Below are positions 2,434 to 13,149 of a stretch of 58,478 bases of DNA, in pieces. The position numbers and the translations under genes are program-made. Below the pieces are notes generated by a model, which ran no database searches, was not told the origin of the DNA, and saw only the letters and a list, made by a program, of their open reading frames with translations. Every line of letters begins with the position of its first letter. Positions within the stretch are counted from its first letter, which is position 1. Source of the DNA: Chloroflexota bacterium (GTDB lineage: Bacteria > Chloroflexota > Anaerolineae > Anaerolineales > Villigracilaceae); the NCBI GenBank assembly GCA_005778035.1, contig SXKT01000017.1, positions 1 through 58,478 of the forward strand. The letters run 5' to 3'.

Positions 2434-2823
2434 ATGGCAAATAAAGGGTTACCGATCGTTTTGATCTTTGTCTTTGTAGTGGGTTTTTGTCTTTTTGGGT
2501 ACGGCCTGTTATTGGTGTTGGGGTCAACTTCATCCCAGGGCAATAGTGGGTGGATAACCTTTGGATTGGGATTTTTGGTTGCCGGCGGCGGTATTGCCGG
2601 TTGGTCAGTAACAGCTTATATGAAGCAACAAAAGGCTGCTACTATCGCCCAACCGGGCAATGGGGCACACATGCCAGGTGATGTTAAGATCAGCCAAATG
2701 AAATGCGCCAGTTGTGGGGGGGCGATCGATTCAAGCGCTGTGCGTATTGAGAACCATGTTCCGATGGTGTTTTGCCCATATTGTGGGGCAAGTTACCAAG
2801 TAAGCGAGGAGCCCAAATGGTAA
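2434..2823 (+). CDS. Small membrane protein with C-terminal zinc-ribbon-like motif
   Basis: Two hydrophobic segments, then CASCGGAI...FCPYCGASY (CxxC...CxxC). Stop overlaps the start of the next gene. Confidence 0.75.
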
Positions 2824-4484
2824 ATAAAAATATATTTCGCATAGCTACAGTATTTTTGGTTTTACTTGGTTTGGCATTGGTTACCTATGGCGCCAGTGCC
2901 CAAACGTATGCATTCCAACTTACTGATGAGCTGGTGAATTACACGATCAATGATGATGGCACGGTATCCGTGGAATATTACTTCACCTTCCAGAATGAGC
3001 CGTGGGCAAGCCCGATCGATTTTGTAGATGTGGGCATGCCGAAGAGCAGCTTTGAAACTGAAAATATTCGTGCTGATGTCAATGGGGTTCCTGTTTCAAT
3101 TAGCAGCGATTACCAGGGTGAAGGTGGCAGTGGATTTGCTGTGGAATTAGGCGCGCAAGCTATCACCGATGTGGGAACGGTACATGTGGTGGTACCAACC
3201 ATCAACCGGATGATTTATCCTGACGATGAAAAAAGTGACTATGCCAGTAGTGTTTTTGGTACTACGTATTTCGGCCAAGAATACGTGAGCGGATCAACCA
3301 ACCTGACCGTAATATTCCATTTTCCGGTGGGGGTTTTACCATCAGAATCGATTTATCACTTGCCTGGCGAGAATTGGCCGGGACCAGCAGTGCCAGCAAT
3401 GGTGGATACGGAGAAGGGTGTTACGTATACTTGGCACACCAGCGAAGCCAACGGCCATACCCAATACCAGTTTGGTGTTTCGTTTCCGTCCAAGTATGTG
3501 CCCGAAAGTGCAATTGTTCGCACCGCCTGGTTGGAAGAATTGATAACCTGGGTAATGGCAGTTTTCCCATTTTTGATCATGTGTGCTGTGGCAATTTATG
3601 CTTTTATCATCGCGCCTATGAGGGCAATATCTAACGCCCGCAAGCGCAAGCTGGAGTATATCAAACCGACCATTTCTGCAGAAGGGCAAGGGATTCGGCG
3701 TGGACTTACCGCGGTAGAAGCCGCAATATTGATGGCAGTCCCACTGGATAAGGTGTTGGCGATGATCTTATATGGTGTGACGAAAAAAGGCGCGGTGCAA
3801 GTATTACGTGAGGATCCGCTTCAGGTACGGAAATCTGATCCACTACCAGAGGGTTTGTTGGAATATGAAACCGAGTTTATCAATTCGATCGTAGCCGATA
3901 TGGGAGCCCGCAAAGCCGCGATGCAAACGGTATTTGTAAACCTGGTAAAAAACGTAACGGAAAAAATGAAGGGCTTTGGTAAAAATGAAACCGAGGCCTA
4001 TTACAAGGCCATCATCGACAAAGCGTGGACCCAAGTTGTGGATGCCAACACACCGGATATGAATCCGGTACTCAATGAGGAATCCTTCGAGTGGACAATG
4101 GCTGATCGCGATTTTGAGGGCCGCTCGCGTAAAGTATTCGACCGGCCGATATTCATCCCTCGTTGGTATGGTAACTATTCTCCCAGTATGTCTCCCAGTT
4201 GGGGTAGCGGCAGTAGCGGAAGTGGGGGTGCCAGCCCCACCAGCGGAAAAGTGCAGCTACCGGGAGCCGACTTTGCCGCCAGTATGGTAACAGGGGTAGA
4301 GACATTCTCAGGCCAACTAATTGGCAATATCAACGATTTTACCGGCCGGATAACGAATGTTACCAACCCTGTGCCGGTTCCCGTGGCCAGTAGCAGCCAT
4401 CGCAGAAGTGGTGGGGGTGGCGGCTGCGCTTGTGCTTGCGCATGCGCTGGCTGTGCATGCGCATGTGCTGGTGGTGGCCGATGA
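2817..4484 (+). CDS. DUF2207-like membrane protein with Cys-Ala alternating C-terminal tail (candidate modified substrate)
   Basis: N-terminal signal/TM segment, extracytoplasmic beta-rich region, second TM (ITWVMAVFPFLIMCAVAIYAFIIAP), cytoplasmic region, and tail SGGGGGCACACACAGCACACAGGGR*. Start taken as ATGGTAAATAAAAAT. Confidence 0.8.
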   Translation: MVNKNIFRIATVFLVLLGLALVTYGASAQTYAFQLTDELVNYTINDDGTVSVEYYFTFQNEPWASPIDFVDVGMPKSSFETENIRADVNGVPVSISSDYQGEGGSGFAVELGAQAITDVGTVHVVVPTINRMIYPDDEKSDYASSVFGTTYFGQEYVSGSTNLTVIFHFPVGVLPSESIYHLPGENWPGPAVPAMVDTEKGVTYTWHTSEANGHTQYQFGVSFPSKYVPESAIVRTAWLEELITWVMAVFPFLIMCAVAIYAFIIAPMRAISNARKRKLEYIKPTISAEGQGIRRGLTAVEAAILMAVPLDKVLAMILYGVTKKGAVQVLREDPLQVRKSDPLPEGLLEYETEFINSIVADMGARKAAMQTVFVNLVKNVTEKMKGFGKNETEAYYKAIIDKAWTQVVDANTPDMNPVLNEESFEWTMADRDFEGRSRKVFDRPIFIPRWYGNYSPSMSPSWGSGSSGSGGASPTSGKVQLPGADFAASMVTGVETFSGQLIGNINDFTGRITNVTNPVPVPVASSSHRRSGGGGGCACACACAGCACACAGGGR

Positions 4485-5866
4485 TCGGAGATTTTCTCCG
4501 CAAGGTGGATAGCGTTTTACCGGCCTTTCCATGGCAGGTACCCAAGATGCATGCTGCTACAGCAATAGAGTACTTTAATATCCGCGAAGGTGGCGGTACT
4601 GTGCAGGTCCACTTGCGGACCGATGCCAATGGCTACGGAACATTGTTTATCAATGCGAACTATGTCTACCACCTCAACCCCACTGCTGCCCATATTGCCC
4701 GCGGGGTATTGCGTGGTGAACCTGTGGACCAAATAAAAAAACGTATTGGCACAATTTACAATGTTCGTTGGCAAGAGCTGGATGATGATTTTGCTTTTAC
4801 AAGCGATCAGATACAGGCGATCATCCACGACAGTACTGCTTGCCCAATCCACACTCTGGAGGTGGAGCATTTGCCGCCTTTCCAGGTGCGTCCAACCGCA
4901 CCTTACCGAATGGACTTGGCAGTGACCTATCGATGCAATAACGATTGCCCTCATTGTTATAATGCCCGCGAGCGAACCTTTAGCGAACTGGATACTGTTT
5001 CTACCAAGCGGATGATTGACAAGATTTGGCAATTGGGTATACCCCACATTGTTTTTACGGGCGGTGAACCAACATTACGCGCAGATTTGGCTGAATTAGT
5101 CGGTTATGCCAGCGGATTGGGATTGATTTGCGGGATGAACACCAATGCACGAAGGTTGATAGACAGAGAATATGTGTCCAACTTAGTAGATGCTGGCTTG
5201 GACCATCTTCAGGTTACAGTAGAAAGCTATGATCCTGAGGTCCATAACCGAATGGTGAATGCCAACGCATTTGACCAGACCATCAGAGGATTGCGAAACG
5301 CACTCGATACCCGCCTGTATGTGATGACCAATACAACCATGTTACGGGAAAACGTAGCGACTATTCCAGAAACGTTGGACTTTTTGGCATCAATTGGCGT
5401 GCCCACAATAGGATTAAACGCTCTAATTTATAGTGGCCACGGCAAAACAGTGGGTACCGGATTAAACGCCACTGAATTGAGCCCGATCTTGCAAATGGCT
5501 ACCCAAAAAACGGTCGCTGCCGGGCAGAGGCTGATATGGTACACCCCAACCCAGTATTGCGGCTTTGACCCGCAAGGGGTGAACTTGGGAGTAAAGGGTT
5601 GCACAGCCGCGCTTTACAATATGTGCCTGGAGCCCAACGGAGACGTATTGCCGTGCCAAAGTTATTACACCCCCGTAGGGAATATATTGACCGATGATTG
5701 GCAAACCATTTGGCAGCACCCTCTATGTGTATCACTTCGCGAGCGCCAAAATGTTCCCGCCAAATGCAATGGGTGCGGCTTATTTTCAGAATGTGGCGGT
5801 GGCTGTCCATTGGAAAACGAATCCGAAGAACGCGCCGCAATGAGTTTGAATGTGATCGCCCTGTAG
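4481..5866 (+). CDS. Radical SAM/SPASM domain protein with N-terminal PqqD/RRE-like domain
   Basis: CNNDCPHCYN (CxxxCxxC), FTGGEP, and SPASM-type cysteines CTAALYNMCLEPNGDVLPCQSYYTPVGNI...CNGCGLFSECGGGC. N-terminus LNPTAAHIARGVLRGEPVDQIKKRIGTIYNV resembles PqqD/RRE. ATGA overlap with the upstream gene. Confidence 0.9.
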   Translation: MIGDFLRKVDSVLPAFPWQVPKMHAATAIEYFNIREGGGTVQVHLRTDANGYGTLFINANYVYHLNPTAAHIARGVLRGEPVDQIKKRIGTIYNVRWQELDDDFAFTSDQIQAIIHDSTACPIHTLEVEHLPPFQVRPTAPYRMDLAVTYRCNNDCPHCYNARERTFSELDTVSTKRMIDKIWQLGIPHIVFTGGEPTLRADLAELVGYASGLGLICGMNTNARRLIDREYVSNLVDAGLDHLQVTVESYDPEVHNRMVNANAFDQTIRGLRNALDTRLYVMTNTTMLRENVATIPETLDFLASIGVPTIGLNALIYSGHGKTVGTGLNATELSPILQMATQKTVAAGQRLIWYTPTQYCGFDPQGVNLGVKGCTAALYNMCLEPNGDVLPCQSYYTPVGNILTDDWQTIWQHPLCVSLRERQNVPAKCNGCGLFSECGGGCPLENESEERAAMSLNVIAL

Positions 5867-5888
5867 GCGAAGGCAAGGAGAGCCCGAT

Positions 5889-6959
5889 ATGCAATGGTTG
5901 AAAACCCTAAAGAATAATTTGCGCAAGCCCGGTGGGATCCCGGCTGGTACTTTTACGGCTACCTGCTACACCCAGCAAAATGTGCCTTACAAGCTTATGC
6001 TGAGGGTAGATGAAAAAGGATTGGGCAGGTTGATCCTTAATGCCCGCACTGTATTGTTCTTAAACGAGACCAGCACCGAGTATATGTACCACTACCTGCT
6101 AAACCAATATGGAGATAAGGTCGTGGGTTTTATGCAGGCAAAATACAAAATCAGCCGGCAAGAGATTCTGAAAGATTACGAATCATTGGTCAATGAAATT
6201 GAGGCCCTGTTAGGCCAAGAGGATTTGAACCCGTTAAGCAGGTTTCAGGGTGTAACCTCTGCCGGCAATGGAGACGCCCCCCAAAAAGTAGACCTTTACC
6301 CAACATTGGCAATGCCAGGGGATCCTGTTTCAGAGCTACAAAACTTGCAATGGTGGCAGAATAAGATGCGCAGCTTGGTGGCGATCGGAGTTCCCCATTT
6401 TATGCTTGTAGGTGGTGAGCCATTGGTGTGGGATGGTACTGTGCCATTGATACAAACCAGCGAAGAGTTGGGTGTAGTGGCAGGTTTGGTTTGCCACCAA
6501 AGCGCTCTTTCTACCCAAAAATTGGATGAATTGATATCGGCTGGATTGGATCATCTATGTCTGTTGGTACCACCAAGCGAGTTGCCTAATTGGCAGCTTT
6601 TGGATGAAATTGCCAAGAAAGACCTATATTTTCAGTTGGTATGGATGGTATCAAATCAAAACCTTTCGCAAGTGAAACTATGCATGCCACAGTGCAGGCA
6701 GGTTGGCGCAAACAACATCTCTTTCGAGGTTATTGAAGCAATGGAACAAGCAGATTTCGATTCCCTTTTCGATGCTGTCGATGATTCCGGCTTGACATTT
6801 GTTCCATTTGCCGAAATGGTTTGCCGGGATGGCTGTGGCGATGACCTGCAACGCTATGCGGATGCGAGCGACATCGACCGTGTGGCGCATATTGTGTTAC
6901 CCAACGGAAACGCTCGAAGTCTGACGAGCGGCATTTGGAGAGATGTGATTGATCAATAG
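5889..6959 (+). CDS. Degenerate radical SAM-like paralogue with RRE-like N-terminus, no [4Fe-4S] motif
   Basis: GVPHFMLVGGEPLVWDG...SEELGVVAGLVCHQSALSTQKLDELISAGLDHL parallels GIPHIVFTGGEPTLRAD...LICGMNTNARRLIDREYVSNLVDAGLDHL in the preceding protein. The CxxxCxxC is absent. Confidence 0.75.
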   Translation: MQWLKTLKNNLRKPGGIPAGTFTATCYTQQNVPYKLMLRVDEKGLGRLILNARTVLFLNETSTEYMYHYLLNQYGDKVVGFMQAKYKISRQEILKDYESLVNEIEALLGQEDLNPLSRFQGVTSAGNGDAPQKVDLYPTLAMPGDPVSELQNLQWWQNKMRSLVAIGVPHFMLVGGEPLVWDGTVPLIQTSEELGVVAGLVCHQSALSTQKLDELISAGLDHLCLLVPPSELPNWQLLDEIAKKDLYFQLVWMVSNQNLSQVKLCMPQCRQVGANNISFEVIEAMEQADFDSLFDAVDDSGLTFVPFAEMVCRDGCGDDLQRYADASDIDRVAHIVLPNGNARSLTSGIWRDVIDQ

Positions 6960-6980: not shown

Positions 6981-7009
6981 AAAATAGGCGCCGAATAGGC
7001 GCCTATTTT
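6981..7009. terminator. Bidirectional intrinsic terminator between converging transcription units
   Basis: AAAATAGGCGCC-gaata-GGCGCCTATTTT. Confidence 0.85.
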
Positions 7010-11411: not shown

Positions 11412-11810
11412 ATGCAGCAAGAACTCAACCCAAAAGCCGTTCTTAGCGCGGCAGCAATTTTATTGATAACTGGCACTGCTGGGGTTTCGGTTTTGGTGTT
11501 GTTTGTTTACCCAACCGTAGGGCCGCGTTGGTTTTTCTATTTTTTTATTTTGTTAGCCTTTGTCGGTTTAGCGATGCCGCCTTTTTTTGCGTTTAATCGA
11601 CTGCTAAAGGTCCATCCTGATTTGGAACGTCCCCGGTTGCAACGTGAGTCTTTAGGTGCGGGCGTATATGGGGCTTTTTTAGTCTGGTTATCGATTGGCC
11701 GATTGCTGACATTACCGCTAGCTTTGTTGATTGCCGCCATTTTGGTTACGGTAGAATATTTGTTGCGTCTGCGAGAGAACGATTTGGCAAAACCGAATGA
11801 ACCTGCGTGA
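11412..11810 (+). CDS. Hypothetical membrane protein (4 TM-like segments)
   Basis: Hydrophobic ORF overlapping the start of selA by 14 nt. Confidence 0.65.
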   Translation: MQQELNPKAVLSAAAILLITGTAGVSVLVLFVYPTVGPRWFFYFFILLAFVGLAMPPFFAFNRLLKVHPDLERPRLQRESLGAGVYGAFLVWLSIGRLLTLPLALLIAAILVTVEYLLRLRENDLAKPNEPA

Positions 11811-13149
11811 TTTGCCATCCATTGATCTTTGCTTGCGGGCCGCGGATGATATGGTATTGCAGTACGGTCGACCGTTAACCTATCGCGCATTTGTTTGGGT
11901 TCTTGATGAAGCCCGGCAAATGGCGAAAACCGGTGAAGGTATTCCCACTTTAGAAGAAGTAATTGTTCGAGCAAATCGATGGCTAAGGCTTTGGACGGAT
12001 CCGCGATTACTTAAAGTCATCAATGCTACCGGAGTGGTGCTGCACACTAACTTGGGCAGGGCACCACTTTCAAAGGCGGCTATTGCTGCCATGGCTCAGG
12101 CAGGTGGAAATTACACCAATCTTGAATTTGATTTGGCTACCGGTAAACGTGGAAAGCGCGACGATCACATTGGCCACCTATTACACACCCTTACCGGCGC
12201 AGAAGAAAGCCTGGTGGTAAACAATTGTGCCAGCGCTGTATTGCTAACCTTATCGGCATTGGCCAAAGGCAAGCAGGTGCTCATTCCACGTTCTCAGTTG
12301 GTTGAAATAGGCGGCGGTTTTCGGGTACCGGACGTAATGAAACAAAGTGGCGCCAAGTTGGTAGAAATTGGAACGACCAACAAGGTCAACCTAAATGACC
12401 AGCTCGAAAAATATGATGAGGCTCGCAACCCTGCTGATGTGATCAGTTTTGTGGCTCACCGCTCCAATTTTCAGATCATTGGTTTTACCGAGGAGCCAAC
12501 TGTTGCCCAAATGTCAGTGGTTGCTCATCAATTTGGTTCTATTTTGATCTATGATCTTGGATCGGGTGCGATGTTGGATACCGCCAAATATGGAATGCAA
12601 CACGAGCCTACAGTGGTGGAAGCCCTAACCGATGGGGCAGATTTGGTTTTGTTTAGCGGAGACAAATTATTGGGCGGACCGCAAGCGGGGATTGTGGTGG
12701 GCAAACGCGTATTGTTAGACAAGCTAAAGAAACACCCATTGGCGCGGGCCGTACGGGCAGATAAGACCACCTTGGCAGGTTTGGCAGCCACACTGACCCA
12801 TTACCTGAAGGACGAGGCAGAACGGGAGATACCCATTTGGCGAAGTATCAGCGCAACCCCCGACTGGATAAAGGCACGCTGCGAAAAAATCTGTGCATGG
12901 GCCGGAGTGGGGGAGGTGATCCCAACACTCGCAACAGTGGGTGGCGGCTCCCTTCCCGGAGAAACATTACCCAGTTGGGCGCTTGCAATTCGTAGCGAAG
13001 GTTTACAAGCGAGCCTGGCGTTGCTTCGAAAACGCGAAGTACCCATTGTTGCCCGCGTTGAGAACAACCTATTAATGATCGACCCCCGGTGCGTTGAAGA
13101 GAGCGATGATGAGATGATCGCCCAAGCGTTACGGGAAATTTATATATAA
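11797..13149 (+). CDS. selA: L-seryl-tRNA(Sec) selenium transferase (SelA-like)
   Basis: LLKVINATGVVLHTNLGRAPLS, TGAEESLVVNNCASAV, SGDKLLGGPQAGIVVG (PLP Lys motif). Confidence 0.9.
   Translation: MNLRDLPSIDLCLRAADDMVLQYGRPLTYRAFVWVLDEARQMAKTGEGIPTLEEVIVRANRWLRLWTDPRLLKVINATGVVLHTNLGRAPLSKAAIAAMAQAGGNYTNLEFDLATGKRGKRDDHIGHLLHTLTGAEESLVVNNCASAVLLTLSALAKGKQVLIPRSQLVEIGGGFRVPDVMKQSGAKLVEIGTTNKVNLNDQLEKYDEARNPADVISFVAHRSNFQIIGFTEEPTVAQMSVVAHQFGSILIYDLGSGAMLDTAKYGMQHEPTVVEALTDGADLVLFSGDKLLGGPQAGIVVGKRVLLDKLKKHPLARAVRADKTTLAGLAATLTHYLKDEAEREIPIWRSISATPDWIKARCEKICAWAGVGEVIPTLATVGGGSLPGETLPSWALAIRSEGLQASLALLRKREVPIVARVENNLLMIDPRCVEESDDEMIAQALREIYI

Follow-up and report, generated by a model that had tools for sequence, protein, structure and literature searches.

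A Cys-Ala-tailed membrane protein and its candidate RRE-radical SAM-SPASM maturase in Chloroflexota and other phyla

A four-gene operon of a Chloroflexota bacterium encodes a membrane protein that ends in a Cys-Ala repeat, followed directly by a radical SAM enzyme with an RRE and a SPASM domain, and a strong link was found between tail and enzyme across the genomes surveyed. Sequence comparison indicates that the tail is very probably the substrate of this enzyme. The operon is likely to represent a RiPP-like maturation system whose target, instead of a secreted peptide, is the C-terminal tail that a membrane protein exposes to the cytosol.

Organization of the operon

The window, i.e., the whole stretch of DNA that was analysed (58,478 nucleotides), contains the following features of interest:

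2434..2823, + strand: gene 1, small membrane Zn-ribbon protein (25 homologues aligned)
2817..4484, + strand: gene 2, Cys-Ala-tailed membrane protein, the candidate substrate
4254..4376, + strand: leader-like segment, gene 2 residues 480-520 (LPGADFAASMV...FTGRITNVTNP), kept in type 1 tail proteins
4425..4481, + strand: Cys-Ala tail CACACACAGCACACAGGGR, extreme C-terminus of gene 2
4481..5866, + strand: gene 3, RRE-radical SAM-SPASM enzyme
4562..4831, + strand: PqqD-like RRE, gene 3 residues ~28-117 (from model secondary structure and PqqD matches)
4934..4957, + strand: radical SAM [4Fe-4S] motif CNNDCPHC, cysteines invariant in 64/64 homologues
5600..5806, + strand: SPASM auxiliary-cluster cysteines C374-C442, kept in 63-64/64 homologues except C382 (55/64)
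5889..6959, + strand: gene 4, pseudo-radical-SAM protein
6981..7009, + strand: terminator-like hairpin between convergent genes (12 pairs on folding)

The layout described in the earlier note was confirmed: four co-oriented genes, with a 7-nt overlap between genes 1 and 2, an ATGA overlap between genes 2 and 3, and a 22-nt gap between genes 3 and 4. The terminator it placed behind gene 4 was also recovered as a stable hairpin (-20.2 kcal/mol, z -4.1), which is missing from a consensus terminator scan because its T run sits within the stem. An assembly artefact is ruled out, since isolates (Leptolinea, Bellilinea, Levilinea, Ornatilinea, and Hungatella) and many MAGs show the same arrangement. 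The usual order in loci of the same order of bacteria is Zn-ribbon protein, tail protein, radical SAM enzyme, accessories if any, and pseudo-radical-SAM protein, the accessories (named by eye), which occur in some of the loci, being a PAS-like protein, a SAM methyltransferase, and a membrane protein without a name.

On the other side of the operon, and divergent from it, lies a methylmalonyl-CoA-mutase-like gene (674-2533); 16 of the clustered Anaerolineae loci have a relative of this gene beside the operon. Further along the window, positions 11797-13149 encode a putative L-seryl-tRNA(Sec) selenium transferase (SelA), a hint of selenocysteine use.

A C-terminal Cys-Ala tail constrained at the protein level

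Gene 2 does end, as had been read, in GGGGG-CACACACA-G-CACACA-GGGR-stop. Its C-terminal tryptic peptide, SGGGGGCACACACAGCACACAGGGR, has 25 residues; its monoisotopic mass is calculated as 1992.661 Da, rising to 2391.811 Da when all seven Cys are carbamidomethylated. The search for this tail, using a DNA pattern for CACACA[G/A]CACACA, covered 85,462 species genomes; at least 120 stretches matched, and 80 were examined. These loci span Chloroflexota, Planctomycetota, Aminicenantes, Acidobacteriota, Zixibacteria, Armatimonadota, and Asgard archaea, among others. The tail was in frame, C-terminal, and ended in ...GGGR-stop in 79 of them, Hungatella, with 27 more residues after the tail, being the lone exception.

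In each core codon, the search pattern prescribes positions 1 and 2, and part of the conservation within the tail core is therefore a selection effect. Free third positions, C-terminal placement, and the GGGR-stop flank are evidence independent of the pattern. Indeed, the 13-codon core was found in 150 distinct DNA versions that vary freely at third positions, and the flank, although outside the pattern, is kept in 79/80 loci, which argues against a tail arising by chance. Constraint on the tail operates at the protein level, and its position is strictly C-terminal. The tail occurs in two forms, (CA)3-5 G (CA)3 GGGR and (CA)3 G (CA)4 GGGR, the latter accompanied by the gene order Zn-ribbon, radical SAM, degenerate radical SAM, and tail protein.

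Co-occurrence of tail, tail protein, and enzyme

Gene 3 was searched in 101 same-order relatives, from which 40 long stretches were picked by gene 3 and not by the tail. All 36 gene-3 orthologues in these stretches carry CxxxCxxC, which none of the 34 gene-4-like proteins does, and the tail was present on gene 2 wherever the reading frame was complete. A survey of 398 Chloroflexota genomes (gene-3 orthologue threshold E<=1e-100) found the tail in 36, gene 3 in 36, and a full-length gene 2 in 36, and the three sets were identical (chance value 5e-52, phylogeny ignored). Within single genera (g9, g17, g3), there are lineages without tail, tail protein, and gene 3 alike.

The association extends across phyla. 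Motif-bearing gene 3 was found within the examined stretch at 61 of the 80 tail loci, and a genome-wide check of the other 19 (9 + 10) revealed a gene-3 homologue in all but one, L136, whose contig breaks inside the next gene. The Asgard genomes L095 and L138 carry gene 3 on a contig separate from that of the tail. Gene 3 without a tail protein and Cys-Ala tails without a radical SAM gene had been named beforehand as findings against the proposal if regular. The gene-3 orthologue never lacked a tail protein in the 398 Chloroflexota genomes, and tails without the enzyme are not regular, as 79 of 80 tail genomes carry a gene-3 homologue.

The tail protein

The structure model of gene 2 (mean pLDDT 85.8) comprises, in this order, a signal peptide, a beta-sandwich (33-224), a TM helix (~238-272), a helical domain (285-454), and a disordered tail. 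The beta-sandwich is predicted to be extracellular and the helical domain cytosolic; the tail is also predicted to be cytosolic because positive charge lies after the TM helix, which is directly followed by RKRKLEYIK. Structure comparison revealed a resemblance of the beta-sandwich to M1 aminopeptidase N-domains and ribophorin I, at TM-scores low enough that the likeness is a fold hint only. A gene-2-like extracellular beta-sandwich was also seen at another locus (L228, 3442-6078), in one protein with a Ser/Thr kinase and a formylglycine-generating-enzyme-like domain, these domains being read by eye except for the gene-2 match.

The segment 480-520, modelled as a short strand plus two helices, stands before the Gly/Ser linker and is proposed as a putative RRE docking site or leader. 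No cysteine outside the tail is conserved in the homologue alignment. With sizes of ~500-640 aa, or ~330 aa in two Hungatella-type forms, the tail proteins differ from sactipeptide and ranthipeptide precursors, which are small peptides with leader and core.

Profile searches assigned gene 2 to no Pfam or NCBIfam family. The DUF2207 label given to it in the earlier note is unsupported, with Pfam DUF2207 matching 0/65 homologues at 0.01. The accompanying suggestion of a TIGR04222-like protein survives as a remote relationship, but not as membership: the TIGR04222 profile gave weak matches in 6/65 homologues (best 3e-4) and none for the window gene, and a gene-2 relative from locus L227 reached 26.6 bits (4e-6), under the cut-off of 43 bits. 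Profile-profile comparison with TIGR04222-type sequences gave 98% with four and 95% with three; since these alignments are small, the remote link of the cytosolic domain to TIGR04222 is tentative. Among open-access papers, none was found on the tail motif, the tail protein, or its pairing with a radical SAM enzyme, and none naming DUF2207 along with radical SAM; compared with that literature, the system is apparently undescribed so far.

The enzyme and its accessory proteins

Gene 3 matches Pfam Radical_SAM (9.7e-28) and SPASM (1.2e-8), the latter being present in 64/64 homologues. The features first read by eye held up, namely the CxxxCxxC motif (CNNDCPHC; C152/C156/C159), the SPASM cysteines (CX12GX4C...CX2CX5CX3C), and the PqqD-like N-terminus, which is backed by the model and by recognition of PqqD in 45/64 homologues (best 4.7e-9), the window gene itself scoring just 0.05. 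Cluster motif, SPASM domain, and PqqD-like RRE together make up the architecture of RRE-radical SAM-SPASM RiPP maturases. The model of gene 3 (pLDDT 89.1, pTM 0.87) best matched the solved structures of SkfB (6efn), SuiB (5v1t), and CteB (5why), all RRE-bearing RiPP enzymes. Identity with PqqE, NirJ2, AhbC/D, the mycofactocin maturase, GeoRSP, or ScmE was rejected, the best score being 131.6 bits against an NCBIfam cut-off of 500. A plasmid search with gene 3 returned distant radical SAM proteins only.

Gene 1 is a membrane Zn-ribbon accessory, in agreement with its initial description as a zinc-ribbon protein. It has one or more N-terminal hydrophobic segments followed by a CxxC...CxxC zinc ribbon, and its relatives end in ..E.PKW; the cysteines and the C-terminal PKW are invariant in 25 homologues, and in 51 of the 80 tail loci gene 1 and the tail gene are neighbours.

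Gene 4 had been described as an inactive partner with the layout of gene 3. It aligns with gene 3 in the N-terminal half and retains the RRE-like N-terminus, but every cluster cysteine is lost. The motif CxxxCxxC is found in 0/34 Chloroflexota relatives and 0/33 relatives from tail loci (sets that partly overlap), and the window copy evolves fast (48% to a near relative). Of the 80 tail loci, 32 have a gene-4 relative, mainly in Chloroflexota, and no pseudo-enzyme was seen in the examined stretches of Aminicenantes, Zixibacteria, Acidobacteriota, or Hodarchaeota/Heimdallarchaeota loci. The family is a conserved cluster-less pseudo-radical-SAM accessory missing from most other phyla; the inactive partner stands, but not as a universal part of the system. 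Because gene 4 is restricted mainly to Chloroflexota, the core consists of the tail protein and gene 3, usually with gene 1.

Variant loci

Minimal two-gene forms were found in Hungatella (L221, 5539-8063; flanked by argH- and argG-like genes) and in another genome of that order (L234, 4396-6793). Both comprise an RRE-radical SAM enzyme and a membrane protein of ~330 aa in which GGGRAGCSxKDFY comes after the Cys-Ala repeat; in L234, the tail is of the type (CA)5, GGGRAGCSRKDFY..., without a central Gly. Outside the 36 Chloroflexota genomes, genome G453 (L227, 3367-6132) contains a partial gene-2 relative with an ACHSACHSACV-repeat tail, beside a Zn-ribbon-like protein and a gene-3 homologue (a radical SAM/SPASM protein that scores 312 bits against the gene-3 profile). 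This locus suggests that other tail types are served by enzymes related to gene 3; a search of 84 genomes from the order of G453, at the threshold applied, detected no second ACHS-type case.

In five loci of one lineage (L065, L066, L067, L088, and L097), gene 3 lies next to a copy of the cytosolic domain of gene 2 that has no tail, and this pair is divergent from a separate pair of tail protein and pseudo-enzyme. A second, tail-less paralogue of that domain also adjoins a second gene-1 paralogue in L229 (3794-4926), a stretch in which no radical SAM gene is present.

Proposed mechanism and alternative explanations

The RRE, radical SAM, and SPASM domains, the inactive partner, the Zn ribbon, and the cytosolic tail claimed for this operon at the outset are all backed by sequence or model. 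Gene 2 would be inserted in the membrane with the beta-sandwich outside and the helical domain and Cys-Ala tail inside. Gene 3 would recognise it, probably through the PqqD-type RRE and the segment before the Gly/Ser linker, and would modify the Cys/Ala repeat by SAM radical chemistry assisted by its SPASM clusters. Where present, gene 4 would act as a catalytically dead RRE-bearing partner that probably helps to hold or present the substrate. The mature tail may be a compact sulfur-rich knot at the inner face of the membrane, serving structure, metal binding, or redox chemistry. Evidence for tail modification comes from the identical sets of 36 genomes, the gene-3 homologue in 79 of 80 tail genomes, the conservation of the tail, the intact cluster cysteines in 64 homologues, and the minimal two-gene form. 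A shared target, and not contact between enzyme and substrate, could also account for the conservation of both.

By analogy with known systems, Cys-to-Ala thioether crosslinks (S-C-alpha or S-C-beta) are the most likely chemistry, with about an even chance of being the one involved. Precedents are the Cys-Ala sactionines Cys5-Ala12 of ruminococcin C1 and Cys9-Ala25 of Trn-beta (PMC8172795), and two of the nearest folds, SkfB and CteB, are those of thioether-forming enzymes. The common tails are compatible with a beta-hairpin whose register, set by the central Gly, brings every Cys to face an Ala. The (CA)5 tail and the ACHS repeat count against this idea as a general rule, and they also make a single fixed ring pattern unlikely.

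Thioether chemistry does not follow from the fold, since SuiB, also among the three closest, makes a carbon-carbon bond. Gene 3 might modify the tail by carbon-carbon or carbon-nitrogen crosslinks or dehydrogenation, or the tail might be the source of an excised small cofactor in the manner of PQQ or mycofactocin, a set of options that we regard as unlikely; the PqqE and mycofactocin maturase models do score 1e-32 and 1e-29 on gene 3. PQQ and mycofactocin derive from Glu/Tyr and Val/Tyr, respectively, whereas the only reactive side chains in the tail are those of Cys and Arg, and an unsystematic look revealed no protease as a conserved neighbour of all loci.

It is less probable still that the tail is an unmodified thiol or metal site and that the enzyme has another target, one required or supplied by the tail protein. 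Metal binding would fit the six to eight clustered cysteines beside a Zn-ribbon partner, and the haem-related NirJ2 and AhbC/D models score 1e-31 to 1e-38 on gene 3, far under cut-off. Nevertheless, gene 3 bears an RRE, a domain for peptide substrates, the exact 36/36/36 concordance takes in the tail itself, and no tetrapyrrole genes were seen by eye among the conserved neighbours. Hardly credible is the reading of the tail as a docking tag for genes 3 and 4, with modification taking place elsewhere in gene 2: although invariant residues also occur in the 480-520 segment and the cytosolic domain, no cysteine there is conserved, and Cys/Ala repeats next to Gly linkers resemble RiPP cores and not RRE-binding leaders.

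Comparison with known systems

The sactipeptide and ranthipeptide maturases SkfB, CteB, RumMC, and AlbA share with the system read here as tail modification the RRE, radical SAM, and SPASM/Twitch domains and a Cys-rich core. In contrast, the substrate candidate here spans ~500-640 aa, sits in the membrane, and carries the core at its extreme C-terminus, the repeat is a regular Cys-Ala one, a pseudo-enzyme partner exists, and the reaction is a presumed one. The haloarchaeal TIGR04347, by its name a pseudo-SAM/SPASM family, is likewise radical SAM-like without a working cluster, but genes 3 (118 bits) and 4 (21 bits) score far under its cut-off of 525. The gamma subunit of quinohemoprotein amine dehydrogenase is an exported protein with a different Cys pattern and, unlike gene 2, offers no tail of a membrane protein as substrate. 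Its enzyme QhpD is also a radical SAM enzyme that crosslinks a protein subunit and not a small peptide (PMC8172795).

For TIGR04222 proteins whose tails are rich in Cys, a role as MNIO substrates has been proposed (PMC12452194), and these systems share with the present one a membrane protein, a Gly/Ser/Cys low-complexity C-terminus, and an adjoining modifying enzyme. Here, however, the enzyme is an RRE-radical SAM-SPASM protein and not an MNIO, the tail is an ordered Cys-Ala repeat, and it is predicted to be cytosolic, whereas TIGR04222 tails are predicted to be periplasmic. No MNIO (DUF692) gene stands among the recurrent neighbours listed. In a separate Chloroflexota locus (L235, 1462-3229), the gene for a TIGR04222 protein with a tail of Gly and Cys precedes one that resembles an MNIO gene (by eye).

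Biological implications

Taken as a whole, the picture of a widespread pathway, in many bacterial phyla and Asgard archaea, in which the radical SAM enzyme converts the cytosolic Cys-Ala tail of a single-pass membrane protein into a prosthetic group, either with multiple thioethers or metal/redox-active, and in which a dead radical SAM paralogue helps in Chloroflexota, may prove right or wrong with similar probability. If it is true, RRE-guided radical chemistry would serve, in lineages that run from Anaerolineae to Asgard archaea, to equip a resident membrane protein with a fixed structure and not to produce secreted peptides. The near-invariant tail offers a well-defined substrate, contained in one tryptic peptide, as well as a signature for finding the system, and the conserved dead paralogue provides a clear case for asking what role pseudo-radical-SAM proteins play. 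The parallel with MNIO-linked TIGR04222 proteins suggests that different enzyme families have converged on Cys-rich tails of related membrane proteins.
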